DNA of 64,000 nt from Owenia fusiformis. Taxonomy: Eukaryota > Annelida > Polychaeta > Sabellida > Oweniidae. Under the pieces are notes generated by a model that had not been told where the DNA came from, made no database searches, and saw nothing but the letters and a program-made list of their open reading frames with translations. The first letter of the stretch is position 1. Each line of letters starts with the position of its first letter. Shown here piece by piece: positions 26,456 through 64,000 of the stretch. Made by a program: the position numbers and the translations under genes. The DNA lies in contig CAIIXF020000005.1 of NCBI GenBank assembly GCA_903813345.2, forward strand, positions 8,189,375-8,253,374. The letters run 5' to 3'.

Positions 26456-26809
26456 TCACTGAATGTTTAACACAGAAACTGACCACTCTTACTTATCAAC
26501 AAAAACAAGAGTTTTATATTCAGACCATCAGGTTGTTGATGTTGCCCAACACCTGTTACCCACTAATGAATTGTCTTTGAATACAGATAGTGCCGTCGGT
26601 TTACAAAAACATCAAGAAGATGACAACACAGAAATCAATCACTTGACATTAAATGCAGCTAATTATCTGTTTTGGATCATGTTATGAGAAGAAAATGTTT
26701 TCTGGGAATTATTTGTAATCAAAAGCACCGAGGGAATGGCCATTATATCCTCAGGGATCAGCAGTAAGTCTTGTAGTTGAATTTTATTATCTCGTTTGAT
26801 GGAAGAGAA

Positions 26810-39301: not shown

Positions 39302-40691
39302 TAGGTACACCATACTTAGTGTTATGATATTAGATCTAAGTTTGAACATATGCTTATATGTATGCGATTTATTGGACCGAATATGCATTTTCCTTATATC
39401 TTTGTCACTTTAAAAACGTACTCCCTGATATTTCACACATTTGTACATCACTCAATTTCCTACCACCCTTCCAGATTTCATAACCATCAGACTGATACAC
39501 GCCTTACCATCGCGTAAGCAGGCGTCACCGTACAGCGTCAAAAAATAGCGGAGTACAGTTTTCTGTACGGTAACGCAAATTAACTGCTTTGAAGCAAAAA
39601 CTTTGACAAGATTTAAAAAAATTAATTTGATGAAAACTAATACGATTTCATGTGAAATAAAAACAGCATTCTCTTAGAAATGGTTTTAACTTTCTGATTA
39701 TGATAAACGTTTTACGAGCACTGTTCGGATTTTTTCTGAGTGAATCGGCCCACATAATCGACCAGATAGACAGGTTCCAATTTCAGAATATCTCAAGGGA
39801 AAGGGTTTTTGAGGCATTTTTTAGAAAAAGCAACAGACCTATTTTTTCTAGATCAGTTTTTCATGCTGATAAAGATATTAAAAGATGACAGCTCAACGGG
39901 ATGGCGATGACACTGATTTTTAGCGTTTTTACCCCCCTAGGAAATTATTCTTGGGGGTACTATAATATTAGTTCATATCTCAAAGGATATATGAACTATT
40001 GTTCTGAGTTCTACAGCATACATTGTTAGTACAGAGATGAATACTATCATAAAGTTATAGGTTGATATCTTTGATGGTTTCGGAAAAATACAATTAATTA
40101 GAAATATATGCAATTAATGTCATTTTTTCTTGCTTATTTTATATTTGTAGCTTCAAGCAAAATATGATAACTTTAACAGCTCAAAGTAGTATTCTAACAA
40201 CATTCCCAAGCTATGTGTGATATTGTAATACATCTATTATAGTGATGAAGAACTATTTTGTAATTCTAATATGACTTTATAGTGCCCTACCCCTGGTAAA
40301 TAGAAGAAAGTTGGTGTGGTTTTCTTCTGGTTTTAACATTTTATTGACTTCTTAGTTGAAGATACAATCAATTTTGTCAGTTTACGATGAGTAGCTTTAC
40401 AATGGTTTAAACTATTCCCATGAATAGAGGGAATTGGGACCTCAAAAATACCAGAACTGTTAAGTGGCATCCTTGGGCAACCCTCTTCAGAGCATTTTCC
40501 TTACACACCAATAAAATCTGCAGGGGATGCTATAAGAAACCTATATATCTTAGATAGTAATGAAAATACTGACTTCATATTTTCAGGATTTGGTCCTGGT
40601 ATGATAGGTAATCTGTATGACAAAAATGACAAAAAGAAAAAACTCTGTTGCCATAGTAACAAGAATACCACACTATTTGTTTCCTAACAAA

Positions 40692-41211
40692 CCAGTCACA
40701 TTTCCCACGGCCGCCGTGTGGCCTATCATTTCTGCGGCCAGTAGCTTTTCTACGCTCGCCGTAGAATTTCTGCGCTCTCATACTTTTGCAGTCACATTTC
40801 CCACGGCAGCCGCACGGTGAATTTTAAATTTCTGTTGATAAATAATACTTTTTTTCATTTTATTTACATTAGGACAATATATAGATGTTATTCATAGTGC
40901 TAGGATGTAATATCAAATGAAAAGTGATCGTGAAACATTGACAAATAATGATTCAATCTTGTTGAGCCAGTTGATTTCTACGGGGACCTCAGAAATGAAC
41001 AAATATTATAACTCAGAGCATGGGCTCTATCAGGTGGTAGAGCCCATGCTCAGAGTTATAATTTCTACGGCGACCCTGCGGCCTGTAAAAAACTGGATAC
41101 GCCGTACGGAGGCCGCAAGGTGAGCGTAGTTTTCCTACGCTCGCCGCAGAAATACACTGATTTACTTGATCTGCGGTCGACTTACGGCCGCAGTGTGACA
41201 AATGTGACTGG
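40692..41211. mobile_element. CpG-rich TIR element, 520 bp, nested
   Basis: The ends CCAGTCACATTT (40692) and AAATGTGACTGG (41200-41211) are a perfect 12-bp inverted pair, continued by CACGGCCGCC-type CpG-rich sequence. A third direct copy of the end (CAGTCACATTTCCCACGG) is at about 40789. Rich in GCGGCC/TACGCTCGCC motifs. It sits inside the fold-back element and contains the hairpin at 41005-41062. Confidence 0.65.
41005..41062. repeat. 24-bp hairpin with one mismatched base pair
   Basis: The arm 41005-41028 (ATTATAACTCAGAGCATGGG then CTCT) pairs with 41039-41062 across a 10-base loop, ATCAGGTGGT. The centre of the CpG-rich element. Confidence 0.85.
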
Positions 41212-43313
41212 GGTGTAAGAAATTTTAAGAGGTTTTGTCATTCTCTTCATATTTTTAATTCTAAATATGTCTACAATGTGGAATGATTAAAATTATGGTA
41301 AAATAATCTTTTCTATATTGTTCATGCAATGTCTCTAAAACAGAAGTTGCTATGGCGACACATATATCAGAGAAAAAATCCTGGGGTGATCGCTCTATTT
41401 GTCAGGAAATTAAAATGGAAACTGAAAAATGAGTTTCTTCCTACTGAATAGCAATTTGGTAGACCATGGCTGACATGCACAAGAGAAAACGTTTATCAGT
41501 TCTATGTCATTTTGTTGTTATTTTTTATTTATCTTGCTCTGGGACTTATAACACCTAATGCCGAATCTTCTCAAACTGCAAAGGAAGGCAAGATTTTAAT
41601 AATGAACATTCATATATCTCAACAAATATGGCCTAAGATTTGGACAATGATGAGGAAACTCTGAGGGAAAACATTAATGTGAGTGGTCCAAAAATAATTA
41701 TGTTTTGAAAAAGTTATGCTCTCGGGTTAATCAGTGTTCCTTTAAGGATAGTCTGAGTCAGGTGAATTTTAACCTTATTGTACCCCTCCCCCAAATTTTT
41801 TACAATGTTTAATGCATTACTATCCTTTATTTTAATGTATCAAATAGCTCTTGAAAGGAAAACTGAATTGCCCTAAGATAAGTGTTCCTCGTGTTATTTC
41901 CCCATTGGAAAAAGTCATGCTATCCATTGGTTTCAGTTCATTTTGGTCATCCAAATTCAGTATCTTTAAAGTCTCTGGAGCAATCCACTTTTCCTCTTAG
42001 GAAATAGAACATGTCTCAAAGCACATTCTAATTATGCATTCAACAATATAATTAAAGGTTGTATTTTTGGTGAAAATTAGGTCAACATTTTTAGTAAAAA
42101 AGTATGTTGATTGGGCCATTCCCTTTAATATCACTTAGGTCTGATTAACTTCATTATCATTATATTTACTTTTCTTGAAGATAATGAATAGATCTAAAAG
42201 ATATACCCATGTTCATGGTCAGAAAATATTCATAATTCAAGCTAGAATTGTCTGAAGTTGTTTTCGATAACCTACATGCTCCTTTTATGCAAATACTATC
42301 AAATGCTGTAGTCATGACAGTTGAAGTAAACTGAAGTCTTGGTATTTAAAGGCAGAATCAGATCTATATAGAATTAACAAAATTGAAAGCAACATGTACA
42401 GTTGACCTACCAATGTATTTCTTACGATCTCAAATATAATATCTCCCAAAAGATCCAAAATATGTTATTAATTGGTAATGTTGCTTAAAATTCAAAGTGT
42501 AAAAGGAGGGAAATGTTCAAATTCTCCAAAATAATAATAAATAAGTTACACTAAGTTATACAAGTGTGAGGCACCATCTGTGGTATCTTTGTCTGGAGTA
42601 AGTGATGTTGGCACTGTTTGACAATGTTACCACCAATAATAAGAAGCAAGTATTGGCTGCAAAGCTTGTACATGGCTCCACTCCTACTGCTATGAGCAAA
42701 AGGCAAACCTGGTCTGATTTTATGCATATTGCAGCTAGGTTGACTACCAGAAAGTCATCTTTGGTTAATAAAGATTCTTAGCTACTTTTCTAACATCTAG
42801 CTGTGATGCATCATGGCTTAATAAGGACTCTGCTATATGGTCAGATGATGAGAACTAACAGTTTTACGGAACTTTTGCCATGTTTTGCAAATTGTAAATG
42901 ACCCTTCTGAATGGGTTGTAAAGGTATATACCAGGAGGTATATATGGCTCAAATGACTCATGACCTAGTATGTGGGACACTGTAGTACATAACTTGTGCA
43001 TGATGACCACCATAGTCTAGTTGCTCAAATGAGATCAATTGATGATTATAATGTTTAGACTTTATGTCAATGTCCAGACTGTTTGCCAACTCTCTAGTAT
43101 GCGATTACGTTAGATTTCATTATGATACATGTACTAAATTGAAAACATATATATAAAATATCTTAAGTCCTATATTGTAGTAATAAATGAATTAGAATGT
43201 CAACTAACATTTGACCGATGGTTTGAATTCATTGATTTGGTATCTATCAATACATGTTTCTAACTTAATGCTGCAAAATGATAAAATTCACCACATCCAC
43301 TTTCTTCAATTTT
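41212..43313. other. Interior of fold-back element, possible decayed coding sequence
   Basis: Around 42560-43060 the base composition is less AT-rich and short open pieces occur, broken by stops, as expected of a dead transposase or captured fragment. I could not recognise a family. The 41910-41975 part resembles 16205-16275. Confidence 0.3.
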
Positions 43314-46300
43314 CCAGGGGTAGGGCACTATAAAGGCATATTAAAATTACAAAATAGTACTTCATAACTAAAATAGATGTATTACAATATTGCACATAGC
43401 TTGGAAATGTTTTTAGAATACTACTTTGAGCTGTTAAAACTGTCATATTTTGCTTGAAGCTACAAATATAAAATTGGCAAGACAAAAATTGTGTATCTTT
43501 TTCCAGTTTATTGTATTTTTTCTGAGACCAATAAGGGTATCAACCTATAACTTTAGGATAGTATTCATATTTGTACTGTATGTATGGTGTGGTACTCAGA
43601 ACAATAGCTCATATATCCTTTGAGCTATGAACTTGTTTCATAGTACCCCCTAGAATATTTTTCTATGGGGGTAAAAATGCCAAAAATTAGTGTCATCGCC
43701 ATCCCGTTGAGCTGTCATCTTTTAATATCTTTATCAGCATGAAAAACTGATCTAGTAAAGATAGGTCTGTTGCTTTTTCTAAAAAATGCCTCAAAAACTT
43801 GAATTATCTAAATTGGAACCTGTCTAAGAGTGAAAAAAGGTTGTTTTTCACATTTTGTTTGGTTATTATTTTCCCTACCGTCTGAGAGTATGGATTATTT
43901 TTATGAGAATATGTATTTGTTACTTACACATTTTAAACGGGTGAAGATTCAGCAAACAACCATTCATTATGTATATTTAAAAAAGATCAAATTTGTACGG
44001 TGACGCACCAGCTGTACGGTGACGCTATGCTTTGATGAACTAAATGAGACTAAGATTCTATGAAATGGAAACTCTGGAGTATGATCATTTGTTCATATAT
44101 AGTGCATGGGCGCTACAGTTCAACGATAGCTTCCACAGCTTAATGGAAGGTTACTGGAAATGTATGATACGGTAAAGATCATGAAACCAAAAACTCTCTT
44201 GTTGCTATGTTATTGATGTTTTAAAACAAGGGATGTCACAAGTAAATCTCATCTTGCACGTGTGACTTTTTAGGATGAAAGATGCAATATCTTGCATGGG
44301 TTAAAGATGGCTATGTAGGCTATCTTTGTTAGTCATATGAGAAAAGCCTGGTTTAGTTCAAATGATACCAAAGCATTACGTCAACTTTCAAATAGTTAAT
44401 TCCATGAAAACTAAAAATATCGAAATTAATACTTCCTGTCCGCCATCTTAAATGCGAAGGTGACGGCTGTAACCTTCGCTTGATACTTACCAGTGATAAT
44501 GTACATGTAGATCTGACGCTTCTTTACCTCTTGTTCGAACAGTAAGCTTAGAGCACTTCATAAAATCTAAGGAAGCGTCACCGTACAGCTGATGCGTCAC
44601 CGTACAGTTCTGATCTTTTTTAAATAAATACACTGAATGATTATTTGCCGAATATTCATCTGTTCTAAAATGTGTAGATAACAAATACATATTCTCATAA
44701 AAATAATCCATACTCTCAGACGACAGGGAAAATAATAACCAAACGAAAAGTGAAAAAACACCATTTTTCTCTCGAGTCGATTATGTGGGCCGATCCAGTC
44801 AGAAAAAATCCGAACAGTGCTCGAAAATCTTTTATCATAATTAGAAAGTTAAAACCATTCCTAAGAGAATGCTGTTTTTATTACACCCGAAATCGTATTT
44901 ATTTTCATCTAATTAATCTTTTTAAAACCCTCATTATAGTTTTTGCTTCAACTCAGTTAATTTTCGTCACCGTACAGAAAACTGTACTACTGTATTTTTT
45001 GACGCTGTACGGTGACGCCTGCTTACGCGATGGTTAGGCGTTTGATAGTCAAAATTTTACAGCACTTTGAATAACTTTAGATTTGGCCATTATCGCGCTG
45101 GAGGCAAAACAGCACAGTTGTCAATGACCCGAATGCATTCCTCAGCATGTATGGGCTGAATGACAGGGATGATCTCACTTTTGTTCTTCAACATTCGGCT
45201 GCAATTTTTGATAAAATTGCCTCCGGTAATCCAACTTATCATTAAGGCCTCCATGTTTAGTCTGACTGACCCGCTTCGTTGCAAGTGATCATCTCTATCT
45301 AGAGATATAATTTCTCAGAGCAATCCAATCGGAATCAATCTGAACGAAAAACGAATTGTAGATAATTGGAATCAATGGATTGAAGATAGGAAAATGAAAA
45401 ATGGCATCCTCCGGAAGATGGAAAAATATCTGCAGGTGAGGTCATTTTGAGGATGCTACACCTTATAGATACAGAGCTTCAATATTCCATTAGCCTCAGT
45501 ATAATGAGTTTCGTTTCAAGACTTCATATAATTTTGTTTACCCGAGGAATAAAAAAATCGGTAAACTTGGGACATTATTGGGTCTTACCGTACTTTGTGA
45601 CATGTCATAATGCCTTGGCTCACCGTTGCACTCATCGTACCATCCCACTGACATGGCGGGCGTAAATGGATGTAATTCAGTTGAGTCATTAAATTATCAT
45701 CTAAGTTATGGTCTCTAACGTAGATTTCAGTCATTTGATGTAAATGTGGGTGTGCAATCATAGATGAGACGATGAATATTGGAGGCCTACAACACCCAAT
45801 TCAAAGTGCCTGAACCAATCTATCTTAATCTTAAAAATAACAATACGCTTATTAAACAACCGCATAACAAACGTCAAGTAAATTACTACTTTTAGAGCAA
45901 GCTATTGTACCACTTATTATTACGGATAAAAAAACAAGATAATCACATTTCATTAACAGTGCACGGATAATCGTCCCAAATCATTCATTTCTGGTACCCT
46001 TTCCCACTGAGTTCATGCTTCAATGCCTGCTACGAGACAAATGGTGATAAATTGGATACAACTTTGGAAAAGGATTGTTACTGTCATTTTTGGTTCTTGC
46101 CTCTGGTTCGATCTAGTTGTTAAGCAATATTTTGTGCAGTCCTGTTGTACTAAAGGTTAAAAGAGATAGAGGAAATAGAATATATGGGGGGGGGGCAATG
46201 AGTCTATATCAGCCTCGGCCCTCCATAAGCTATGTAAATAATTGTGTTGATAATTATGCAAATAAAAAATCATTAACCTAAAAAATTGATTTTATACATT

Positions 46301-46342
46301 AGTGAAATATGCATGATGTCGTGTAATTAGATCTTTAAGACC

Positions 46343-46561
46343 CAGGCCCGTAGCCAGGGGGGGGGGGTTCCCAGGGTTTGGGCGAACCCCCCCCCCCTGG
46401 CCAAAAATTCTTTCAAAATCATGCAGTTTTTCACCATTTAGAGCACTTCTCAAGTGATTTTAGTCATATTTGGGCCAAAATTGTCAAATGTGAACCCTCC
46501 CCTGGAAATTTTTGAAAACTGAACCCCCCCCCCCCCTTGGCAAATCCTGGCTACGGGCCTG
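46343..46561. mobile_element. 219-bp MITE with 16-bp perfect TIR and poly-G/C tracts (copy 1)
   Basis: The ends CAGGCCCGTAGCCAGG and CCTGGCTACGGGCCTG are exact inverses, flanked by the direct repeat AGACC (46338-46342 and 46562-46566), a 5-bp target duplication. Long G and C runs lie just inside and in the middle. No coding sequence. Confidence 0.85.
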
Positions 46562-46810
46562 AGACCAGTTGACACTAACTTGGCAGGTTAATGGAAAAAC
46601 AAATTGATTAGTATGTTACACAAAAGGTATTTATATTTAATCAGTGACTGATTCAATTTCGCAACTGATGTCAACATAGAGATCAAAGTGACAACTGAGG
46701 ATACTGTTAAGAATTAAAAGTATCCCTGTCATCATTTTCATGGTTACCACAGAAATTGGCCTTTTGGATCAATTTCACATATAAGAAAGGTTCAGATACA
46801 AAAAAAGATT

Positions 46811-46894
46811 TGTCAGAAGTGGGATTCGAACCCACGCCCACAGAAGTGGACTGCGACCTGAACGCAGCGCCTTAGACCACTCGGCCATCCTGAC
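46811..46894 (-). tRNA. tRNA-Leu (anticodon CAG), copy 1
   Basis: On the minus strand GTCAGGATGGCCGAGTGGTC begins an 84-nt cloverleaf. It has A box TGGCCGAGTGG, an anticodon loop containing TTCAGGT (CAG), a long class II variable arm, B box GGTTCGAATCC and a 3' TTCTGAC stem strand with discriminator A. A T-run (minus strand) follows about 6 bases on, fitting a Pol III terminator. There is no intron. All stems look intact, so I judge it functional. Confidence 0.95.
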
Positions 46895-47151
46895 GAGGTG
46901 AGATTACTCTCCTGATAACATTGTATAATTTTATTATCGATATTGTAACCCCCGAGACAATATTTTGCAGTAAATTGACAAATCATTACATCACCATTGC
47001 GTCATAACCGCGTTTTTTATCTCTCAAAACTTCACCAAAGGATCAAGTCTAACACATACTAACTGGAGTTAAAAACATTTAACTCATAATCTCATCAGAT
47101 TCTTCATCCATATCAGGAGGGGGATCTCCCGACGTAATAGTAAAATTAAAT

Positions 47152-47326
47152 ACAATGAACCCTGTAAAGTAGAACACTTCTAGAAGTGAAACACTTTTGA
47201 GAGTCCCAAGACCAGCTGACTTAATGTTAGGCTAAATGGATCCCTGTTTAAAGTGGAACACCTCCCAAATGGAACACTTATTAGCCCATGATTCCAAAGG
47301 TGTTTTACTTAGGGAGGTTTTACTGT
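47152..47326. mobile_element. pogo-like MITE (duplication copy 1)
   Basis: CCCTGTAAAGTAGAACACTT at the left and GGGAGGTTTTACTGTA at the right, with internal GGAACAC repeats, match the family at 16645-16797. The small frame covering its end is not a gene. Confidence 0.55.
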
Positions 47327-47829
47327 ACCCAAAGTAGGTACGGTAACAAGCTAAGCATCTTTATAGACCTATCGGGTAAAGTTGTGTATTCCAGGAATAC
47401 ATACGTCTATAAAGATGTCAAAGATGCTTGTGAAACCTTTTATCAGCATGAAAATTTTAATTACAATTACAAAGTAAGATCGTTTTCTGAAACGACGGTC
47501 ATTTATTACAAGAAAATTGGCGATTAAGGTGATATCTGGTGTATTTTGAAGTTCTCAAGTTTATTGCATAACATAAATAAAAGTATGTAGACAGAAGTAG
47601 GCTAAGTAATGATAATCTATAACTAGCCCATTCGACAGCTCTACAAAGGGGTGCGTCACAATGTTGGGTTAAAATATAGAATATTGCCATATATTATTTT
47701 ATAAAATAGGAATATTGGGAAAATAAAAGAATTGAATATTGGTCTCAGATTTGAATATGGTGGCCTAAAAAGTAAGGAATGTGGCTCATGAGAGTAAAAA
47801 CATACAAGGAATATGTTAAAGACCTAATA

Positions 47830-48360
47830 CCACGAAACGACCTCGATGGCGATGGTTTTTAATTCTATCCTCTTTAATCCGACTGGATCCGATTGGAAAC
47901 GGTTCGTTTTGGTAACAAAATGTCGGAACGTCGAAGGTACGATTTTTCTTTTTTCCTATTTCACGCGTTGTAGGCAGAATTCCAACGGCGTTTTTTCTCA
48001 CAAACGCGTATCAGCATCATATGTTTTAAAAAATGTACATGTTTGCGAAAAAATATCTCAGAAGACAACAGAATCGTCGATTTAATTCCTCACTTAAAGT
48101 TATATAAACGGTTTGGGTTAAAAGTGCAGATCTTAACTGTTTTTCGAAAAACCTATTCTGTTGTCTTCTGAACTATTTGCTCGCAAATATGTACATTTTC
48201 TTAAACATATGATACTGATACACGTTTGTTTTAAAAATGTCGTGGGAATTCTCCCTACAACGTGTGAAGTAAGGAAAAAAGAAAAATCGTACCTAAGATG
48301 TTCCGACATTTTGTTACCAAAACGGACCGCTTCGGTAACCAGCGTAATCGAGTGGATCAC
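47830..48360. repeat. Imperfect fold-back, about 500 bp (duplication copy 1)
   Basis: GGTTCGTTTTGGTAACAAAA and TGTCGGAACGTCG near 47900 recur inverted as TGTTCCGACATTTTGTTACC and AAAACGGACCGC near 48300. The TCACAAACGCGTATCAGCAT and GATACTGATACACGTTTG parts also pair. Open frames on both strands here mirror one another because of the symmetry. Repeated at about 57422-57952. Confidence 0.6.
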
Positions 48361-51300
48361 CAGTGTAGTACTAGTCTACTGCAAGATTTCCTTAAAGTGA
48401 ATGGGCAAATTAAGAGTACGGAAAAATAAGATCGTTGATTAATTATATTGAGACCTGGAGAATCTAGTGTCGTTTCAAGAGGCCACATATCCGTTGCTAA
48501 TAAAATGTTCCGTCTGGCTAAATTATAGAGATTCGGAGGATATTCGAGCAATCAGAAATTAATTACGAAAGGTTCACGAATGAATACGTGAAAAAATCAC
48601 GTATGCTCTATTCACCCAGCTCACAATTCTAATACTCTTCACAACTTCCTATCTTGAACCCTACGATATTCAAAAACTTCGAAAAACTTTTTTAAAAAAA
48701 GTTCTATATTATCGCTCAATATTGCTTTGGAAATCTAACCTTCCGAATTTGGCCTATTAATTCAATTTTTGGTTGGGCTTGAAAGTGATGTTGAATTCTG
48801 ATTAGTGTGACTTTGACATTTCGGTGTCTAAAACTAGAGATATCGGCAAAATGGGTTTATCCATTAATAGGGTGTCTCAAAAATGGTGCATCTTGTTATA
48901 TTTCTTTGAATATATTTCTCATAATACAGCATTGCTTAAATATATATTCCGCCTTTGGATTGAAATTTAAATTGATAATTTCGTAAGTCTAGTCTCGCCA
49001 TGTAGGTTGTCTCTCTTTTGAACCAGATTTCAAACGCAAATGTGGACTCATTAGTTTGTTTCAAATTAAAAAATTATCCTTTTTGAAATAGTTGAATTTT
49101 CTTTATTCAAATTGATGTACCTCAACGTGCAAATACTTCGATCAATTTAGCTTTACTCCATTTTTAAAGTTTATTTACGTCAATTAAAATTTCACTATGC
49201 TTCACTTTTTCAAATAATTTTGAAATTTCCATCATATCTTCTACTTTGTCAATTAAGATGATATTTGTAATTAAAGAAAATAAAATTGTCTGTGTTGGAT
49301 TACGAATTTACCATAATTTACCTAAGAATCCTTTTTCACCAACTATGGAAATGGCTGTTTTTGAACCCCATGTCCACCCTAGTAATTAAACTTGAACACT
49401 GGTGTAAAACGACAGGTACCAACTCAATTTTATTGACCTAAAATATAACCTATCTAGTCATTTTGGTACACCCTGTACTTCCTTTCTCTTTGTCAGGCCA
49501 GGCTGACACCGACGGACCAGGCTGACACAGTCAGACAACCTGGACAACATAGACTAAATATATATTCCCATTTCCTTTAGAGTCTATTGTGATGAAATCA
49601 ATTGAATTCTCGGTTTCACTTACAAGAAATTCCAGATAATATGCAGTTACTTTATACTTAGTATTCTAATCAAATTAATAACTGACACGAGCTTTGGGAA
49701 ATTATAGGCCCTATGGTTATAGCCAAGACTGTACTAAGCCATGGATATTGAACTAGTTATCAAAGCCCCTTGAGTGGTTGACTTTGAAATGGTATTGCGA
49801 TGTGCACGTGGTATCATGAACGTTCATGGCTTGGTCTACTGGATCAATAAGCTGATTTCATTAAAAAAGTCATACTCACAAGTACAGTTCTATTTACAAA
49901 TTACAATATACGTTACCTAACCTTCAAATCACCAGGAGTTGTTTTTGATAAATACTTCTGTCTCAACACACCCGGGAATTGTTTTTGAGAATTTCATTAT
50001 TTACCTCTGAAAAAACACATGTTGTTATGAAAGAGCCAGGAACATGCCAAAGTGACATATTTGTTGAGCGTAAATCGATTTACAATAAAACCTCAAATTG
50101 ATATTACGTAACGTTAAACAAACTTTGCCTTTCAACTACGTCCCCGAGTGTAACATCAATGCAAAATATACAATTTATACATAATTGTTTCTATATTAAC
50201 ACCTTGAGAAGATTCATTAGGATGATGTGGACGAAGTTCTCTTTTAAAGAAGCAAAATCAAACTATTGAAAGAGTATGAGTGGGTAGGGCCTTAACGTAA
50301 TTTTTTATTTTTAATGTAAATCTATACATTGATACGTTCACCTAATTGGACTTCCTTAGTTTTTATCTGTCATTTTTCCATCACTATTTACTAAATCAAA
50401 CATATTTGTTGGGTGTTTTGCTTGATAACGTAATCCTCCTACATTCAACCTCAAGTAGTAACATCTAGTTAACGAACAAATCATATACGTTACAAGTCGA
50501 ACATGTTCAAAGACTAAGTAGTAAGTAAGATGACTGTACCAGCGCGGGAGAGCCAAAGCTTATTGAAAGGGTCCAGTAATCATAACTCAACTTGTAGAAA
50601 TGTAATGTGAAGACTAACATGTATTGATGCTATTTTACGAGTCTCCATACGTCGTTCCCACGTAACATCATTTATCTTGGAAAACGTTCAAATTGTGTTG
50701 TTAATGGAACTTATCCAAACTTTGACGCACGGGTCACTTTCTATTTCTTAACCCCGAGTACTGGATATTGGATTGATAATAGTAATTTATTTTCATACGA
50801 AGGGCAGTATTATACTAATGGAGTAAAGTCCTTAGTGACCTTGATAACTTTCTGGCTTCGTAGATTCGCACGTATTCCATATTGGCAGTTTGCGTCATAT
50901 CAAAATCACTCCACTGACACAAAAGAATATAAGTAATTCATAGTCGATAGTCTACATTATGAAATTCCGGTTATCGATACTAATCCTAATTTCAAAACAT
51001 TCTTGCCCTATATCCTTGTTTCAAACAATAACTTGATCCTTTTATTCAAGATTCTTTTAACTGTATCAGTTCAACCATCCGCGATAAATAAACACTCTCG
51101 TGCCGATGAGTGATGAGGCATGGTCGTACTCCGCCCATGCACAATATCTAGGACACTTACCTCAAATTATCTCGGATGCAATTAGATGAAAGAATCGTTA
51201 AAATAGCAACAAGGGGAAATCTAATTTCAAGAAACCATTGAATCACCATTGACCATGCGTGAACAGTCAACTTTACTTTTTCACGAATAGAAATATAATA

Positions 51301-51694
51301 TTGAAATACACTACCCTCCTCAAGTTTGGCAACCTGTAGTTTTCATTTGGATTGCACGTCAAATGTCATCAATGTCTGAATCTTAATTTTGCTTCTTGAG
51401 TACAAAAGTTCGGAAATTTATGAATTTTTTAAATCACCAAACATAAATAGGCATTGATAGATGATCCAAATGTGGACTCTCGTAACTACGTCAACTTACG
51501 AAGGGGGTGTAGTATCGATCGGAAAAATGGGTTGTAAAGAGCTTTCTTTACATTACAATACATACTTTTTTAATAATTCAAGCAAATAAAAAAGGAAATA
51601 TAACTGGAAAAGTTATTACCATTCTTAAAGGATAGCTGCGTATTCACTTAAGAATTTTCCTCAGTGTTGAATGGGTACGGGAAAGTATTTTTCT

Positions 51695-51800
51695 CAATTT
51701 GCCATTCTGATTCTCATGCATGATCGTTTCACTTGTATTGTGATCTCGCCGGCTGAGAAGAAATTCAACGACATGGTCTATTTTGATGCTATTTGCCGGA
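51695..51800. repeat. Dispersed module, diverged copy
   Basis: CATTCTGATTCTCATGCATG, then GGCTGAGAAGAAATTCAACG and ACATGGTCTATTTTGATGC, follow the order of the module at 31600-31705 with more changes. Repeated at about 61287-61392. Confidence 0.35.
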
Positions 51801-53457
51801 AATGAGATTTCTCTAGAACACGTTGAATGCAGACACTTAAATGTTTTAAGAGAAAGTCGGATGCGTTCCTAATATTTATTTCATTCGTCACCTGATTTCC
51901 ATCCTCGGTCTTGCCTCCTGGTTCCATCAATCAGCCCAATAGATAATATGGGCTCCAAGGTTAAGTAGCAAGAGCAATTCCGAGTAATCAGACACGCCAA
52001 GTATTTATTACTCGGACCTTTTTACGCTGAAAACATAAACGTTTAATAATTATGGAATGTTTTTCTTGACCTTTTCATTGCAGTTAACAAGCGAAATAGC
52101 AATTAGTTATCCTTCTAAGATAAACTCCTTCGTATCAGTAAAGCTGAAGAAAGCGTCTGAAACGCTACTCTAGACTTACTGACCCTGGGCGCAGAAGTTA
52201 GTTCTTTTAAGTGGAACGAATGTTGAACGAATGTAAATGGTAAAGCTGGAGTATCTCGATGAGGGCTGAACCGGGCGCCGTCCATGTTTTATGCACTATC
52301 TTGTCTTCTTTCACGGAGGCGATAGGTCATCATTAACATAGCACTAACATTGGCAAACTACGAAACGAGATGAGAGGTCATATTTACTCTTAATCTTTAT
52401 TTTATAAATCCTCCTACATTCCTCCCCTCATTGTATTGTACATTTTTTACCTCGTATTAATAGTTGTAAACCGACTACTCTATCTTTAACCGAAAAACAG
52501 ACAAATTTGGTTCATTAGTTGCATCTCATAGCGGAAGCTCATCAGTTTCAAAATGACGGTGCGATTTCGATATGACGCAAACTGTCTACATGTTATAATG
52601 CTTAAAAATTACAATATGTACGAGGCCAGGGAGTTATTTTACTGTTGAAACATCACTTTTTAGGTTTGAGTGAGAGAAGGTTTATCGATAATTGAACAGG
52701 ATTGTTGCATGCAAAATGAAAACCAGGTTGCCAATTCAATGCAAAAATACTTGTCACCATGGAACATAATATTTCAATTGAGTTCCATCTTACTAGTGTA
52801 AACAAAACCCTGCATATGGGATGATGAAAAGATTGAGAAAGCATTGATCTCATTTCATACATAAACCTCAAATGTCACAGTTAAATAATTAAAGTGAAAT
52901 TACAATAAGATTCGCTTATTTAAATTCCGTTGCAGAAACTTCTGAACTTAACCTGATATATTCTCCACAACGAGTATCAAAACACATTATAGCTAATATA
53001 AGATCGGGCGTAAATGAGAGCTGGAACAGTCGAGGCTTAAACCCAAGGCGAATAGCAGTTGCGTTGAAGAAAATCTATTACGGCACACAACGGCTAGGAT
53101 AACTAAAGATATTACTTATTACAAGATATAATCTTCAATGAGCCGGTCTTCCTTCCAGAGAGTTAATGAAGTTGATTAATTTTATACGGATTATTTTTAA
53201 CGTTATACATCCTGAACCTGGCGTAGTAAAACGGAAAATAGAAACTGATAAAACCCGAGGTTGGTGAACAAATGTGAAGTGAACAAAGCACAAAGGCATT
53301 CAAATTCAAATACATCCTAGAAATACAGCAAGATAACACGACGGAGACAGTGATTATGAAAAATGCCTTCGACTACATCTGCATCGACGAATTACTTTTC
53401 ACAACGCACCGAATCCCGTAAGGACTTGATATAGTTCAAAACTCGTAGAAAGAGTTG

Positions 53458-54621
53458 ATGACTGAGTTGTCAATACATTACAGAATGGCAGGTTATGAAA
53501 GGAACCCGAATTATAGTGATAATTTAAATTTTACTGTTTATATCAGCACAAATGAACCGCCAGGTGGACCGCCGCAGAACTCTTCTCCGGAATTTGACGG
53601 AGTGCCGAATTATATCCCTGCATGCGTGTCGTACATTGGGACCATAACAGGAACAATTGTGTCAATAACTGGTATATTTGGGAACATTCTTCTAATCATT
53701 GCCATCCTAACAATTCCTAAAATGAAAAAGGCTTCAAACATCTTCGTTGCGAGTTTGGCATTTTGTGATTTACTTCAAGCGCTGGGAGTACAACCACTTT
53801 ACATTTACACGTACGTTCATGGAGCGTGGACGTTTGATAACAGCGTTTGCGTTTACGTTATGTACTTAAGTAATCTGAGTATACTTTTGAGCATACTTCA
53901 TATCGCAGTTATAGCATTTTACAGGTATCTTATAGTGGTCCATAGACGCACATCCAGGAAACTGCACAAAAAACTCGCCATCTTTATAATACTGGGAATT
54001 TTATATCTACTACCTTTGGTCATAATCGTGGCTCCGACACTTCCAAAGCTAGTCGGATACACTGCTGCACATCCGGAAGGCCCCCCTCTCGTATATTTCA
54101 ACACAAAAATCATGTTCTGTGTATACAAACGCCATTCATATTCCAATATAGGCGGCTTCATAAAGAAAGTACTGTTTCTTGGAGGAGCGGGATTATTTCT
54201 TATTTTTTGTTACGTTAAAATCTACGCCTCCGTCAAAGAGAGTGGAAAGCTGGTGGCAAAATCAGGAAGTCATGAAACGTACACAATGCATCCATACTCT
54301 CAGACGACAGGGAAAATAATAACCAAACGAAAAGTGAAAAAACACCATTTTTCTCTCGAGTCGATTATGTGGGCCGATCCAGTCAGAAAAAATCCGAACA
54401 GTGCTCGAAAATCTTTTATCATAATTAGAAAGTTAAAACCATTCCTAAGAGAATGCTGTTTTTATTACACCCGAAATCGTATTTATTTTCATCTAATTAA
54501 TCTTTTTAAAACCCTCATTATAGTTTTTGCTTCAACTCAGTTAATTTTCGTCACCGTACAGAAAACTGTACTACTGTATTTTTTGACGCTGTACGGTGAC
54601 GCCTGCTTACGCGATGGTTAG
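53458..54621 (+). CDS. Chimeric ORF: class A GPCR (TM1-5) fused to fold-back element sequence
   Basis: 387 codons. Residues 1-278 are a rhodopsin-family receptor: N-terminal sequons (NYS, NFT, NSS), TM1 about 59-85 with GN at 75-76, TM2 about 93-117 with SLAFCD (D104), C131 and TM3 ending FYRY at 154-157 (the DRY position), TM4 about 172-195, C221 in the second extracellular loop, TM5 about 234-258 with Y252. After H278 the frame crosses the duplication junction into the fold-back element: 109 residues with a basic stretch (KRKVKKHH) and a hydrophobic segment at 349-368. TM6 and TM7 are lost. ATG at 53458 has a poor context; ATG at 53485 (cagaATGg) is better and may be the true start. Probably a broken receptor copy; expression unknown. 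Confidence 0.8.
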   Translation: MTELSIHYRMAGYERNPNYSDNLNFTVYISTNEPPGGPPQNSSPEFDGVPNYIPACVSYIGTITGTIVSITGIFGNILLIIAILTIPKMKKASNIFVASLAFCDLLQALGVQPLYIYTYVHGAWTFDNSVCVYVMYLSNLSILLSILHIAVIAFYRYLIVVHRRTSRKLHKKLAIFIILGILYLLPLVIIVAPTLPKLVGYTAAHPEGPPLVYFNTKIMFCVYKRHSYSNIGGFIKKVLFLGGAGLFLIFCYVKIYASVKESGKLVAKSGSHETYTMHPYSQTTGKIITKRKVKKHHFSLESIMWADPVRKNPNSARKSFIIIRKLKPFLRECCFYYTRNRIYFHLINLFKTLIIVFASTQLIFVTVQKTVLLYFLTLYGDACLRDG

Positions 54622-54634
54622 GCGTTTGATAGTC
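54290..54634. mobile_element. Right end of the fold-back element, duplicated
   Basis: Copy of 44706-45050 brought next to receptor sequence by the tandem duplication. Its 5' part is the coding tail of the chimeric ORF. Includes TGTACGGTGACGC motifs near the TIR. Confidence 0.9.
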
Positions 54635-55930
54635 AAAATTTTACAGCACTTTGAATAACTTTAGATTTGGCCATTATCGCGCTGGAGGCAAAACAGCACA
54701 GTTGTCAATGACCCGAATGCATTCCTCAGCATGTATGGGCTGAATGACAGGGATGATCTCACTTTTGTTCTTCAACATTCGGCTGCAATTTTTGATAAAA
54801 TTGCCTCCGGTAATCCAACTTATCATTAAGGCCTCCATGTTTAGTCTGACTGACCCGCTTCGTTGCAAGTGATCATCTCTATCTAGAGATATAATTTCTC
54901 AGAGCAATCCAATCGGAATCAATCTGAACGAAAAACGAATTGTAGATAATTGGAATCAATGGATTGAAGATAGGAAAATGAAAAATGGCATCCTCCGGAA
55001 GATGGAAAAATATCTGCAGGTGAGGTCATTTTGAGGATGCTACACCTTATAGATACAGAGCTTCAATATTCCATTAGCCTCAGTATAATGAGTTTCGTTT
55101 CAAGACTTCATATAATTTTGTTCAGTACCCGAGGAATAAAAAAATCGGTAAACTTGGGACATTATTGGGTCTTACCGTACTTTGTGACATGTCATAATGC
55201 CTTGGCTCACCGTTGCACTCATCGTACCATCCCACTGACATGGCGGGCGTAAATGGATGTAATTCAGTTGAGTCATTAAATTATCATCTAAGTTATGGTC
55301 TCTAACGTAGATTTCAGTCATTTGATGTAAATGTGGGTGTGCAATCATAGATGAGACGATGAATATTGGAGGCCTACAACACCCAATTCAAAGTGCCTGA
55401 ACCAATCTATCTTAATCTTAAAAATAACAATACGCTTATTAAACAACCGCATAACAAACGTCAAGTAAATTACTACTTTTAGAGCAAGCTATTGTACCAC
55501 TTATTATTACGGATAAAAAAACAAGATAATCACATTTCATTAACAGTGCACGGATAATCGTCCCAAATCATTCATTTCTGGTACCCTTTCCCACTGAGTT
55601 CATGCTTCAATGCCTGCTACGAGACAAATGGTGATAAATTGGATACAACTTTGGAAAAGGATTGTTACTGTCATTTTTGGTTCTTGCCTCTGGTTCGATC
55701 TAGTTGTTAAGCAATATTTTGTGCAGTCCTGTTGTACTAAAGGTTAAAAGAGATAGAGGAAATAGAATATATGGGGGGGGGGGCAATGAGTCTATATCAG
55801 CCTCGGCCCTCCATAAGCTATGTAAATAATTGTGTTGATAATTATGCAAATAAAAAATCATTAACCTAAAAAATTGATTTTATACATTAGTGAAATATGC
55901 ATGATGTCGTGTAATTAGATCTTTAAGACC

Positions 55931-56154
55931 CAGGCCCGTAGCCAGGGGGGGGGGGGGTTCCCAGGGTTTGGGCGAACCCCCCCCCCCCCCTGGCCAAAAA
56001 TTCTTTCAAAATCATGCAGTTTTTCACCATTTAGAGCACTTCTCAAGTGATTTTAGTCATATTTGGGCCAAAATTGTCAAATGTGAACCCTCCCCTGGAA
56101 ATTTTTGAAAACTGAACCCCCCCCCCCCCTTGGCAAATCCTGGCTACGGGCCTG
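55931..56154. mobile_element. 224-bp MITE with poly-G/C tracts (copy 2)
   Basis: As for 46343-46561, with the same 16-bp TIR and AGACC target duplication. It is a few bases longer because the internal G and C runs differ in length. Confidence 0.85.
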
Positions 56155-56403
56155 AGACCAGTTGACACTAACTTGGCAGGTTAATGGAAAAACAAATTGA
56201 TTAGTATGTTACACAAAAGGTATTTATATTTAATCAGTGACTGATTCAATTTCGCAACTGATGTCAACATAGAGATCAAAGTGACAACTGAGGATACTGT
56301 TAAGAATTAAAAGTATCCCTGTCATCATTTTCATGGTTACCACAGAAATTGGCCTTTTGGATCAATTTCACATATAAGAAAGGTTCAGATACAAAAAAAG
56401 ATT

Positions 56404-56487
56404 TGTCAGAAGTGGGATTCGAACCCACGCCCACAGAAGTGGACTGCGACCTGAACGCAGCGCCTTAGACCACTCGGCCATCCTGAC
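56404..56487 (-). tRNA. tRNA-Leu (anticodon CAG), copy 2
   Basis: Identical in sequence to the gene at 46811-46894, including both internal promoter boxes and the downstream T-run, carried by the tandem duplication. Confidence 0.95.
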
Positions 56488-56743
56488 GAGGTGAGATTAC
56501 TCTCCTGATAACATTGTATAATTTTATTATCGATATTGTAACCCCCGAGACAATATTTTGCAGTAAATTGACAAATCATTACATCACCATTGCGTCATAA
56601 CCGCGTTTTTATCTCTCAAAACTTCACCAAAGGATCAAGTCTAACACATACTAACTGGAGTTAAAAACATTTAACTCATAATCTCATCAGATTCTTCATC
56701 CATATCAGGAGGGGGATCTCCCGACGTAATAGTAAAATTAAAT

Positions 56744-56919
56744 ACAATGAACCCTGTAAAGTAGAACACTTCTAGAAGTGAAACACTTTTGAGAGTCCCA
56801 AGACCAGCTGACTTAATGTTAGGCTAAATGGATCCCTGTTTAAAGTGGAACACCTCCCAAATGGAACACTTATTAGCCCATGATTCCAAAGGTGTTTTAC
56901 TTAGGGAGGTTTTACTGTA
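56744..56919. mobile_element. pogo-like MITE (duplication copy 2)
   Basis: Same as 47152-47326. Confidence 0.55.
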
Positions 56920-59900
56920 CCCAAAGTAGGTACGGTAACAAGCTAAGCATCTTTATAGACCTATCGGGTAAAGTTGTGTATTCCAGGAATACATACGTCT
57001 ATAAAGATGTCAAAGATGCTTGTGAAACCTTTTATCAGCATGAAAATTTTAATTACAATTACAAAGTAAGATCGTTTTCTGAAACGACGGTCATTTATTA
57101 CAAGAAAATTGGCGATTAAGGTGATATCTGGTGTATTTTGAAGTTCTCAAGTTTATTGCATAACATAAATAAAAGTATGTAGACAGAAGTAGGCTAAGTA
57201 ATGATAATCTATAACTAGCCCATTCGACAGCTCTACAAAGGGGTGCGTCACAATGTTGGGTTAAAATATAGAATATTGCCATATATTATTTTATAAAATA
57301 GGAATATTGGGAAAATAAAAGAATTGAATATTGGTCTCAGATTTGAATATGGTGGCCTAAAAAGTAAGGAATGTGGCTCATGAGAGTAAAAACATACAAG
57401 GAATATGTTAAAGACCTAATACCATGAAACGACCTCGATGGCGATGGTTTTTAATTCTATCCTCTTTAATCCGACTGGATCCGATTGGAAACGGTTCGTT
57501 TTGGTAACAAAATGTCGGAACGTCGAAGGTACGATTTTTCTTTTTTCCTATTTCACGCGTTGTAGGCAGAATTCCAACGGCGTTTTTTCTCACAAACGCG
57601 TATCAGCATCATATGTTTTAAAAAATGTACATGTTTGCGAAAAAATATCTCAGAAGACAACAGAATCGTCGATTTAATTCCTCACTTAAAGTTATATAAA
57701 CGGTTTGGGTTAAAAGTGCAGATCTTAACTGTTTTTCGAAAAACCTATTCTGTTGTCTTCTGAACTATTTGCTCGCAAATATGTACATTTTCTTAAACAT
57801 ATGATACTGATACACGTTTGTTTTAAAAATGTCGTGGGAATTCTCCCTACAACGTGTGAAGTAAGGAAAAAAGAAAAATCGTACCTAAGATGTTCCGACA
57901 TTTTGTTACCAAAACGGACCGCTTCGGTAACCAGCGTAATCGAGTGGATCACCAGTGTAGTACTAGTCTACTGCAAGATTTCCTTAAAGTGAATGGGCAA
58001 ATTAAGAGTACGGAAAAATAAGATCGTTGATTAATTATATTGAGACCTGGAGAATCTAGTGTCGTTTCAAGAGGCCACATATCCGTTGCTAATAAAATGT
58101 TCCGTCTGGCTAAATTATAGAGATTCGGAGGATATTCGAGCAATCAGAAATTAATTACGAAAGGTTCACGAATGAATACGTGAAAAAATCACGTATGCTC
58201 TATTCACCCAGCTCACAATTCTAATACTCTTCACAACTTCCTATCTTGAACCCTACGATATTCAAAAACTTCGAAAAACTTTTTTAAAAAAAGTTCTATA
58301 TTATCGCTCAATATTGCTTTGGAAATCTAACCTTCCGAATTTGGCCTATTAATTCAATTTTTGGTTGGGCTTGAAAGTGATGTTGAATTCTGATTAGTGT
58401 GACTTTGACATTTCGGTGTCTAAAACTAGAGATATCGGCAAAATGGGTTTATCCATTAATAGGGTGTCTCAAAAATGGTGCATCTTGTTATATTTCTTTG
58501 AATATATTTCTCATAATACAGCATTGCTTAAATATATATTCCGCCTTTGGATTGAAATTTAAATTGATAATTTCGTAAGTCTAGTCTCGCCATGTAGGCT
58601 GTCTCTCTTTTGAACCAGATTTCAAACGCAAATGTGGACTCATTAGTTTGTTTCAAATTAAAAAATTATCCTTTTTGAAATAGTTGAATTTTCTTTATTC
58701 AAATTGATGTACCTCAACGTGCAAATACTTCGATCAATTTAGCTTTACTCCATTTTTAAAGTTTATTTACGTCAATTAAAATTTCACTATGCTTCACTTT
58801 TTCAAATAATTTTGAAATTTCCATCATATCTTCTACTTTGTCAATTAAGATGATATTTGTAATTAAAGAAAATAAAATTGTCTGTGTTGGATTACGAATT
58901 TACCATAATTTACCTAAGAATCCTTTTTCACCAACTATGGAAATGGCTGTTTTTGAACCCCATGTCCACCCTAGTAATTAAACTTGAACACTGGTGTAAA
59001 ACGACAGGTACCAACTCAATTTTATTGACCTAAAATATAACCTATCTAGTCATTTTGGTACACCCTGTACTTCCTTTCTCTTTGTCAGGCCAGGCTGACA
59101 CCGACGGACCAGGCTGACACAGTCAGACAACCTGGACAACATAGACTAAATATATATTCCCATTTCCTTTAGAGTCTATTGTGATGAAATCAATTGAATT
59201 CTCGGTTTCACTTACAAGAAATTCCAGATAATATGCAGTTACTTTATACTTAGTATTCTAATCAAATTAATAACTGACACGAGCTTTGGGAAATTATAGG
59301 CCCTATGGTTATAGCCAAGACTGTACTAAGCCATGGATATTGAACTAGTTATCAAAGCCCCTTGAGTGGTTGACTTTGAAATGGTATTGCGATGTGCACG
59401 TGGTATCATGAACGTTCATGGCTTGGTCTACTGGATCAATAAGCTGATTTCATTAAAAAAGTCATACTCACAAGTACAGTTCTATTTACAAATTACAATA
59501 TACGTTACCTAACCTTCAAATCACCAGGAGTTGTTTTTGATAAATACTTCTGTCTCAACACACCCGGGAATTGTTTTTGAGAATTTCATTATTTACCTCT
59601 GAAAAAACACATGTTGTTATGAAAGAGCCAGGAACATGCCAAAGTGACATATTTGTTGAGCGTAAATCGATTTACAATAAAACCTCAAATTGATATTACG
59701 TAACGTTAAACAAACTTTGCCTTTCAACTACGTCCCCGAGTGTAACATCAATGCAAAATATACAATTTATACATAATTGTTTCTATATTAACACCTTGAG
59801 AAGATTCATTAGGATGATGTGGACGAAGTTCTCTTTTAAAGAAGCAAAATCAAACTATTGAAAGAGTATGAGTGGGTAGGGCCTTAACGTAATTTTTTAT

Positions 59901-62900
59901 TTTTAATGTAAATCTATACATTGATACGTTCACCTAATTGGACTTCCTTAGTTTTTATCTGTCATTTTTCCATCACTATTTACTAAATCAAACATATTTG
60001 TTGGGTGTTTTGCTTGATAACGTAATCCTCCTACATTCAACCTCAAGTAGTAACATCTAGTTAACGAACAAATCATATACGTTACAAGTCGAACATGTTC
60101 AAAGACTAAGTAGTAAGTAAGATGACTGTACCAGCGCGGGAGAGCCAAAGCTTATTGAAAGGGTCCAGTAATCATAACTCAACTTGTAGAAATGTAATGT
60201 GAAGACTAACATGTATTGATGCTATTTTACGAGTCTCCATACGTCGTTCCCACGTAACATCATTTATCTTGGAAAACGTTCAAATTGTGTTGTTAATGGA
60301 ACTTATCCAAACTTTGACGCACGGGTCACTTTCTATTTCTTAACCCCGAGTACTGGATATTGGATTGATAATAGTAATTTATTTTCATACGAAGGGCAGT
60401 ATTATACTAATGGAGTAAAGTCCTTAGTGACCTTGATAACTTTCTGGCTTCGTAGATTCGCACGTATTCCATATTGGCAGTTTGCGTCATATCAAAATCA
60501 CTCCACTGACACAAAAGAATATAAGTAATTCATAGTCGATAGTCTACATTATGAAATTCCGGTTATCGATACTAATCCTAATTTCAAAACATTCTTGCCC
60601 TATATCCTTGTTTCAAACAATAACTTGATCCTTTTATTCAAGATTCTTTTAACTGTATCAGTTCAACCATCCGCGATAAATAAACACTCTCGTGCCGATG
60701 AGTGATGAGGCATGGTCGTACTCCGCCCATGCACAATATCTAGGACACTTACCTCAAATTATCTCGGATGCAATTAGATGAAAGAATCGTTAAAATAGCA
60801 ACAAGGGGAAATCTAATTTCAAGAAACCATTGAATCACCATTGACCATGCGTGAACAGTCAACTTTACTTTTTCACGAATAGAAATATAATATTGAAATA
60901 CACTACCCTCCTCAAGTTTGGCAACCTGTAGTTTTCATTTGGATTGCACGTCAAATGTCATCAATGTCTGAATCTTAATTTTGCTTCTTGAGTACAAAAG
61001 TTCGGAAATTTATGAATTTTTTAAATCACCAAACATAAATAGGCATTGATAGATGATCCAAATGTGGACTCTCGTAACTACGTCAACTTACGAAGGGGGT
61101 GTAGTATCGATCGGAAAAATGGGTTGTAAAGAGCTTTCTTTACATTACAATACATACTTTTTTAATAATTCAAGCAAATAAAAAAGGAAATATAACTGGA
61201 AAAGTTATTACCATTCTTAAAGGATAGCTGCGTATTCACTTAAGAATTTTCCTCAGTGTTGAATGGGTACGGGAAAGTATTTTTCTCAATTTGCCATTCT
61301 GATTCTCATGCATGATCGTTTCACTTGTATCGTGATCTCGCCGGCTGAGAAGAAATTCAACGACATGGTCTATTTTGATGCTATTTGCCGGAAATGAGAT
61401 TTCTCTAGAACACGTTGAATGCAGACACTTAAATGTTTTAAGAGAAAGTCGGATGCGTTCCTAATATTTATTTCATTCGTCACCTGATTTCCATCCTCGG
61501 TCTTGCCTCCTGGTTCCATCAATCAGCCCAATAGATAATATGGGCTCCAAGGTTAAGTAGCAAGAGCAATTCCGAGTAATCAGACACGCCAAGTATTTAT
61601 TACTCGGACCTTTTTACGCTGAAAACATAAACGTTTAATAATTATGGAATGTTTTTCTTGACCTTTTCATTGCAGTTAACAAGCGAAATAGCAATTAGTT
61701 ATCCTTCTAAGATAAACTCCTTCGTATCAGTAAAGCTGAAGAAAGCGTCTGAAACGCTACTCTAGACTTACTGACCCTGGGCGCAGAAGTTAGTTCTTTT
61801 AAGTGGAACGAATGTTGAACGAATGTAAATGGTAAAGCTGGAGTATCTCGATGAGGGCTGAACCGGGCGCCGTCCATGTTTTATGCACTATCTTGTCTTC
61901 TTTCACGGAGGCGATAGGTCATCATTAACATAGCACTAACATTGGCAAACTACGAAACGAGATGAGAGGTCATATTTACTCTTAATCTTTATTTTATAAA
62001 TCCTCCTACATTCCTCCCCTCATTGTATTGTACATTTTTTACCTCGTATTAATAGTTGTAAACCGACTACTCTATCTTTAACCGAAAAACAGACAAATTT
62101 GGTTCATTAGTTGCATCTCATAGCGGAAGCTCATCAGTTTCAAAATGACGGTGCGATTTCGATATGACGCAAACTGTCTACATGTTATAATGCTTAAAAA
62201 TTACAATATGTACGAGGCCAGGGAGTTATTTTACTGTTGAAACATCACTTTTTAGGTTTGAGTGAGAGAAGGTTTATCGATAATTGAACAGGATTGTTGC
62301 ATGCAAAATGAAAACCAGGTTGCCAATTCAATGCAAAAATACTTGTCACCATGGAACATAATATTTCAATTGAGTTCCATCTTACTAGTGTAAACAAAAC
62401 CCTGCATATGGGATGATGAAAAGATTGAGAAAGCATTGATCTCATTTCATACATAAACCTCAAATGTCACAGTTAAATAATTAAAGTGAAATTACAATAA
62501 GATTCGCTTATTTAAATTCCGTTGCAGAAACTTCTGAACTTAACCTGATATATTCTCCACAACGAGTATCAAAACACATTATAGCTAATATAAGATCGGG
62601 CGTAAATGAGAGCTGGAACAGTCGAGGCTTAAACCCAAGGCGAATAGCAGTTGCGTTGAAAATCTATTACGGCACACAACGGCTAGGATAACTAAAGATA
62701 TTACTTATTACAAGATATAATCTTCAATGAGCCGGTCTTCCTTCCAGAGAGTTAATGAAGTTGATTAATTTTATACGGATTATTTTTAACGTTATACATC
62801 CTGAACCTGGCGTAGTAAAACGGAAAATAGAAACTGATAAAACCCGAGGTTGGTGAACAAATGTGAAGTGAACAAAGCACAAAGGCATTCAAATTCAAAT

Positions 62901-63046
62901 ACATCCTAGAAATACAGCAAGATAACACGACGGAGACAGTGATTATGAAAAATGCCTTCGACTACATCTGCATCGACGAATTACTTTTCACAACGCACCG
63001 AATCCCGTAAGGACTTGATATAGTTCAAAACTCGTAGAAAGAGTTG

Positions 63047-64000
63047 ATGACTGAGTTGTCAATACATTACAGAATGGCAGGTTATGAAAGGAACCCGAAT
63101 TATAGTGATAATTTAAATTTTACTGTTTATATCAGCACAAATGAACCGCCAGGTGGACCGCCGCAGAACTCTTCTCCGGAATTTGACGGAGTGCCGAATT
63201 ATATCCCTGCATGCGTGTCGTACATTGGGACCATAACAGGAACAATTGTGTCAATAACTGGTATATTTGGGAACATTCTTCTAATCATTGCCATCCTAAC
63301 AATTCCTAAAATGAAAAAGGCTTCAAACATCTTCGTTGCGAGTTTGGCATTTTGTGATTTACTTCAAGCGCTGGGAGTACAACCACTTTACATTTACACG
63401 TACGTTCATGGAGCGTGGACGTTTGATAACAGCGTTTGCGTTTACGTTATGTACTTAAGTAATCTGAGTATACTTTTGAGCATACTTCATATCGCAGTTA
63501 TAGCATTTTACAGGTATCTTATAGTGGTCCATAGACGCACATCCAGGAAACTGCACAAAAAACTCGCCATCTTTATAATACTGGGAATTTTATATCTACT
63601 ACCTTTGGTCATAATCGTGGCTCCGACACTTCCAAAGCTAGTCGGATACACTGCTGCACATCCGGAAGGCCCCCCTCTCGTATATTTCAACACAAAAATC
63701 ATGTTCTGTGTATACAAACGCCATTCATATTCCAATATAGGCGGCTTCATAAAGAAAGTACTGTTTCTTGGAGGAGCGGGATTATTTCTTATTTTTTGTT
63801 ACGTTAAAATCTACGCCTCCGTCAAAGAGAGTGGAAAGCTGGTGGCAAAATCAGGAAGTCATGAAACGTACACAATGCATCGGATGAAGCGTGAGTATAA
63901 ACTACTCAAAACAATGGTTGTCATATTTGTGACTTTTGTGCTCTGTTATACTCCGCTTTCGATCCTTAACGGGGTCGATCGCGAGAACGCTGAATCGCAC
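63047..64000 (+). CDS. Class A G-protein-coupled receptor, 3' end beyond window
   Basis: 318 codons with no stop to the window edge. The first 278 residues match the chimeric copy; then the sequence goes on RMKREYKLLKTMVVIFVTFV and LCYTPLSILN, a third-loop end and TM6 with F-x-x-C-Y-x-P (297-303) in place of the usual CWxP. TM1 GN, TM2 D104, C131/C221 and FYRY are present. TM4 lacks the usual tryptophan. The motif set (FYRY, AWTF before the TM3 cysteine) recalls melatonin-receptor-like and Tre1/moody-like receptors, but ligand and subfamily cannot be assigned. Start at 63047, or better context at 63074. This is the parental, apparently intact gene. Confidence 0.85.
   Translation, partial: MTELSIHYRMAGYERNPNYSDNLNFTVYISTNEPPGGPPQNSSPEFDGVPNYIPACVSYIGTITGTIVSITGIFGNILLIIAILTIPKMKKASNIFVASLAFCDLLQALGVQPLYIYTYVHGAWTFDNSVCVYVMYLSNLSILLSILHIAVIAFYRYLIVVHRRTSRKLHKKLAIFIILGILYLLPLVIIVAPTLPKLVGYTAAHPEGPPLVYFNTKIMFCVYKRHSYSNIGGFIKKVLFLGGAGLFLIFCYVKIYASVKESGKLVAKSGSHETYTMHRMKREYKLLKTMVVIFVTFVLCYTPLSILNGVDRENAESH

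Follow-up and report, generated by a model that had tools for sequence, protein, structure and literature searches.

The window analyzed here, a stretch of 64,000 nucleotides from an Owenia fusiformis contig (positions 8189375–8253374 of contig C5 of the assembly searched), contains a 9.58-kb unit (44706–54289) that recurs head to tail, in the same orientation, at 54290–63878. The first copy (9,584 bp, plus strand) is made up of the outer part of a right transposon arm, some 8.4 kb of DNA that includes a tRNA-Leu gene, and codons 1–278 of a receptor gene; the second copy (9,589 bp, plus strand) starts with the outer 337 bp of the same right arm (54290–54626). The tandem duplication proposed in a previous, sequence-only reading of this DNA is borne out: the copies are joined by a single BLAST alignment of 9,593 columns with 99.83% identity, 3 mismatches and 6 gap openings, far above chance. 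The three substitutions are all C/T, and four of the six indels are changes in homopolymer length, the remaining two being CAG and GAA; thus, 5 of the 9 differences (the substitutions, CAG, and GAA) lie outside homopolymers. The receptor codons common to both copies show zero differences in this alignment, so that selection is not measurable. A search of the genome (498.26 Mb in 525 contigs) with a 2-kb piece of the unit produced 17 rows, of which 2 were full-length matches, both at this locus, and 15 were shorter than 100 bp; with the 5′ part of the receptor, 2 of 92 rows were 100% matches, both again at this locus, the next best row being only 31% identical. Neither of these searches yielded an extra contig with an allelic copy. 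Matches to the junction region, the receptor, and the transposon fall mainly on contigs C1–C12, presumably the 12 chromosomes. A forkhead search gave 38 rows, grouped by eye into about 32 genes, on nine contigs (C1, C3, C4, C5, C6, C8, C9, C10, and C11), including tight clusters on C8 and C10 and a tight pair on C3; this agrees in outline with the 35 Fox genes published for Owenia fusiformis, which occupy nine of its 12 chromosomes, with tandem duplications of foxQ2 on two of them and a closely linked foxC-foxL1 pair (PMC9539403), although the contig numbering differs from the published chromosome numbering. A COX1 search of the genome gave no match.

The main rival to a genuine duplication is an assembly artefact, whereby a unit that exists once was assembled twice, either because of a chimeric read or because a repeat was under-collapsed. 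The near identity of the copies is compatible with such an error, and the prevalence of homopolymer changes among the indels (4 of 6) is the pattern expected of sequencing error; moreover, false duplications arising from haplotypes and read errors are documented in assemblies, where they are common and may be recognized by signs such as an unusual read depth or a gap between the copies (PMC9516828). Such a gap is not seen here, there being no run of N in the 64-kb window, the five differences outside homopolymers argue against a unit assembled twice, and the sequences that meet at the junction have no more than 3 bp in common, too little for a join by sequence overlap. On balance, the artefact appears improbable, albeit a rival to be taken seriously. 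A real and young duplication, possibly still polymorphic, which left a non-signalling fragment or proto-gene, is the most likely explanation. At approximately 3.1e-4 substitutions per site between the copies, the duplication would date back roughly 16,000 to 160,000 generations under assumed rates of 1e-8 to 1e-9, an estimate that errors or gene conversion would shift.

The shared unit carries several additional features. The tRNA-Leu(CAG) gene, located on the minus strand at 46811–46894 and 56404–56487, was duplicated together with the receptor fragment. An imperfect palindrome is present in both copies (47896–48333 and 57488–57925), with arms of 62 and 83 bp that are 92% and 86% complementary, and is probably another small inverted-repeat element. 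A short element-like stretch (46343–46561, and its counterpart in the second unit) has inverted ends, CAGGCCCGTAGCC...GGCTACGGGCCTG, and long runs of G and C, which hold two of the length differences between the copies.

The intact parent receptor gene, a single exon that codes for a 428-aa protein of the rhodopsin class, starts at 63047 on the plus strand, in the second copy, extends to the end of the window (64000), and reaches its stop codon at window-scale position 64333, 333 bp past the window (read in L001 and L016). The protein aligns with the full 7tm_1 profile (positions 1–260 of 260, E 2.1e-31) and shows seven hydrophobic peaks over its 428 residues; with a complete 7tm_1 domain and seven hydrophobic segments, the predicted product is a class A (rhodopsin) G protein-coupled receptor (GPCR). 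Its best relatives of solved structure are the melatonin receptors MT1 and MT2 and the neuropeptide Y1 receptor (E 2.6e-22 to 1.1e-21), and the 278-aa part by itself matches Y1 best (2.2e-15); as sequence matches, these relatives are insufficient to name the ligand.

The transposon arm belongs to a fold-back element that, in its complete form, occupies 39498–45042 next to the first copy and is flanked by the target repeat TGATA. Its left arm is split by a nested second fold-back element of 4,060 bp (39767–43826), with a 3-bp target repeat AGA and inverted arms that are 86% alike; the possibility that the host element lacks an outer left arm was ruled out because this arm was located at 39498–39766, split off by the nested insertion. 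The nested element is repetitive, with at least 291 matches (38 of 5,789 candidates were scored). For the host element, 40 of 2,664 first-look candidates were scored and the best 14 were fetched, of which one is the window's own, leaving 13 others for comparison. These genomic copies are about 1,440–1,490 bp long, carry inverted arms of some 478 bp, and define a high-copy fold-back family. The ends of the family are CACGCC...GGCGTG; the left end reads CACGCC in 12 of the 13 fetched copies and CATGCC in L005, and 5-bp target repeats, read by eye, accompany all 13. In the copy in the window, the last base is changed. A 5-bp target duplication and termini beginning with CAC are marks of the Transib/RAG-like group, and the family shows the former in 13 of 13 copies and the latter in 12 of 13 left ends (CAT in L005). 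The longest open run in 43827–45042 is 119 codons. Because assignment to the Transib/RAG-like group also calls for a related transposase, in the element or in an autonomous relative, we do not place the element there.

The two breaks are joined through a 3-bp microhomology, ATC, at 54290–54292, which is also found at 44706–44708 and 63879–63881: the receptor side reads ...ACAATGC-ATC-GGATG, the element side ...AAAATA-ATC-CATAC, and the junction ...ACAATGC-ATC-CATAC. Under a uniform-base model, about 5% of blunt joins would share at least 3 bp, and the microhomology suits microhomology-mediated joining or template switching, being proof of neither. The breakpoint at 44706 lies inside the right transposon arm, 337 bp from the end of the element, so that the event does not look like ordinary transposition of an end. 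The candidate identification of the breakpoint with a transposon terminus was rejected since the termini common to the 13 copies lie further out. The same observation weighs against a transposition-driven duplication, in which a transposase would have cut at the element end and joined this end to the receptor gene; one side of the junction is indeed within a transposon, but the distance of 337 bp to the termini fixed by the 13 copies makes this scenario highly implausible. Among the 41 genomic matches to 54100–54500, 39 start at query position 191 or 192 (about 54290), which marks only the end of the receptor part of the query.

Read across the junction, the first copy contains an open reading frame of 387 codons (53458–54621, plus strand), with an ATG at 53458, a TAG stop at 54619–54621 and the closest upstream in-frame stop at 53446. 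Residues 1–278 of the chimera match the parent receptor of the second copy without a single difference and residues 279–387 (codons at 54292–54618) are encoded by the transposon arm, which confirms the reported cut after residue 278 and the in-frame, 109-codon fold-back tail. Only 5 bp separate the end of the tail from the right terminus of the element (45042, corresponding to 54626 in the second copy), so that the tail includes the terminal repeat, as the sequence-only reading had stated. Compared with the first ATG, one at codon 10 sits in a more favorable context, with an A at −3 and a G at +4, so that the true start may be Met10. Two other long open reading frames in the window, 23366–24289 and 25657–26580, appear to span tandem repeats, with peptide motifs repeated on overlapping frames, and are unlikely to be genes.

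The three forward frames entered from the breakpoint stop after 9, 45, and 109 codons, and the longest of these is the one that the fusion uses. Under a first-order Markov null, at least 109 open codons occurred in 0.135% of runs, a rarity that counts against the chimera being a silent fragment. Judged by its frames, this length is notable, yet it is a property of the arm and not of the fusion. Among the other elements, the tail frame stays open to the same stop, at codon 109, in only 4 of the 13 right arms and in none of the 13 left arms (the left arm of L006 is partial), and no Pfam family was found in the tail (the best hit, E 0.54, falls below the cut-off). The interpretation of the tail as a transposon protein was ruled out on both grounds, the frame not being kept across the family and the tail having no Pfam family. 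The simplest reading is that the tail frame was non-coding before the duplication, and the fact that the fusion is in frame carries little weight as a sign of function. Thus, of the proposed "new chimeric gene," the chimeric open reading frame stands, but its status as a gene is at best putative, given that most members of the transposon family have stops within the tail frame.

In the predicted protein, the 7tm_1 match reaches only profile position 190 of 260, and the hydropathy plot shows five receptor peaks and one peak in the tail; TM6, TM7, and the C-tail are gone, which leaves the chimera short of the seven membrane segments of class A receptors. If translated, it should therefore not signal by itself. 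An AlphaFold model of the chimera alone, built from the single sequence, was uninformative (mean pLDDT 45.3, pTM 0.30). The basic patch and hydrophobic stretch described previously are both present: residues 269–348 contain 16 K/R versus 4 D/E and are followed by a segment (349–367) with a mean Kyte-Doolittle value of 1.97, compared to 1.98 for TM5 and 1.53 for TM2. That this segment equals the true TM5 in hydrophobicity and sits behind a basic stretch counts against the silent-fragment explanation, and a sixth membrane segment in the tail is a plausible prediction. When open frames matched to the tail in composition were simulated, 5.6% of 5,000 runs reached the value of this segment and 18.5% a value of at least 1.6. 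Membrane proteins reportedly can arise from thymine-rich noncoding DNA, and the tail resembles these in that a hydrophobic segment was born of noncoding DNA; here, however, the segment is joined to an existing receptor, and T accounts for only 32% of the tail DNA.

Copy 1 does keep the upstream sequence of the parent, about 8.75 kb being the same in both copies, and accordingly, copy 1 could be transcribed. The 3′ end of the parent is excluded from copy 1, and the first AATAAA lies 514 bp after the stop of the chimera and 171 bp after that of the parent. These features bear on the possibility that the chimera acts as a dominant-negative partner, that is, an expressed protein with five or six membrane segments that would bind the intact receptor and retain it in the cell. 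A precedent exists among receptors with five transmembrane segments (5TM): according to PMC3477067, receptors truncated to fewer than seven segments mostly behave as dominant negatives in vitro, with exceptions listed, namely the 5TM form from unspliced Y1, which has no part in facilitating Y1 production, and the 5TM form of NTS2, which is functionally active. A close parallel in that text is GHS-R1b, in which TM1-5 are present, TM6-7 are absent and the end is unrelated; GHS-R1b, however, arises by splicing from a single gene (PMC3477067), whereas the chimera has its own locus, created by the duplication, and carries 109 tail residues that may include a membrane segment. The TM5-like tail segment, the preceding excess of K/R, and the shared upstream DNA would all fit a dominant-negative role; conversely, the tail is a chance frame, comparably hydrophobic segments appear in the simulated frames at the frequencies given above, and copy 1 lacks the 3′ end of the parent. 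By analogy, then, such a role, which the sequence-only reading itself labelled speculative, is conceivable but quite unlikely. The more specific proposal, in which the transposon arm gave a sixth segment and the resulting six-segment protein, with an extracellular C-terminus, owes its expression to the copied upstream DNA and regulates the adjacent intact receptor, seems slightly less likely still.

Taken together, these observations lead us to favor, with fair assurance, a recent tandem duplication that kept the intact gene and produced a 5′ fragment with a run-on frame, likely a functionless fragment or a proto-gene; the assembly artefact ranks second and the dominant-negative function third. 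Starting from the unit, junction, open frame, and intact parent observed in the sequence, the favored course of events would be a single recent rearrangement that generated the 9.6-kb tandem duplication, whereby a break in the fold-back right arm (44706) was joined, with 3 bp shared, to a break after codon 278 of the single-exon class A receptor gene. Microhomology-mediated end joining and template switching are both candidate mechanisms for the join, and the inverted arms might have been a fragile site. The outcome would be a complete gene downstream, in copy 2, and an upstream 5′ fragment, in copy 1, with a frame that continues through the arm as far as the first stop. Under this account, the duplication would be very young, transcription from the duplicated upstream region would be possible, and the product would likely end as a fragment or proto-gene without an independent function, which may still be polymorphic.

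Chimeric frames made by duplication are an already known kind of event, defined by a duplication breakpoint that lies inside a gene and is joined to other sequence, which is the configuration found here. In Drosophila, chimeric and de novo transcripts form when a tandem duplication takes in the 5′ portion of a gene (PMC5460883). As in Drosophila yakuba, a boundary inside a gene sets its 5′ end beside formerly non-genic DNA; the difference is that transcription was measured in Drosophila yakuba (PMC5460883), whereas the Owenia case is known from sequence alone and the partner is a transposon arm. A literature search for a matching case, a chimeric GPCR formed with a transposable element by tandem duplication in an annelid, gave only papers that, judging by their titles, look unrelated, although a matching one may exist in print.

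A caller of open reading frames could label this chimera a gene by length only, which calls for caution. If real, the locus offers a clean, very young chimeric open frame for which the parent, the junction, and the donor element are all at hand, with parent and copy still free of coding change. It would then bear on how often such fragments become expressed, on how noncoding tails turn into membrane segments, and on whether truncated receptor copies may affect the parent gene.
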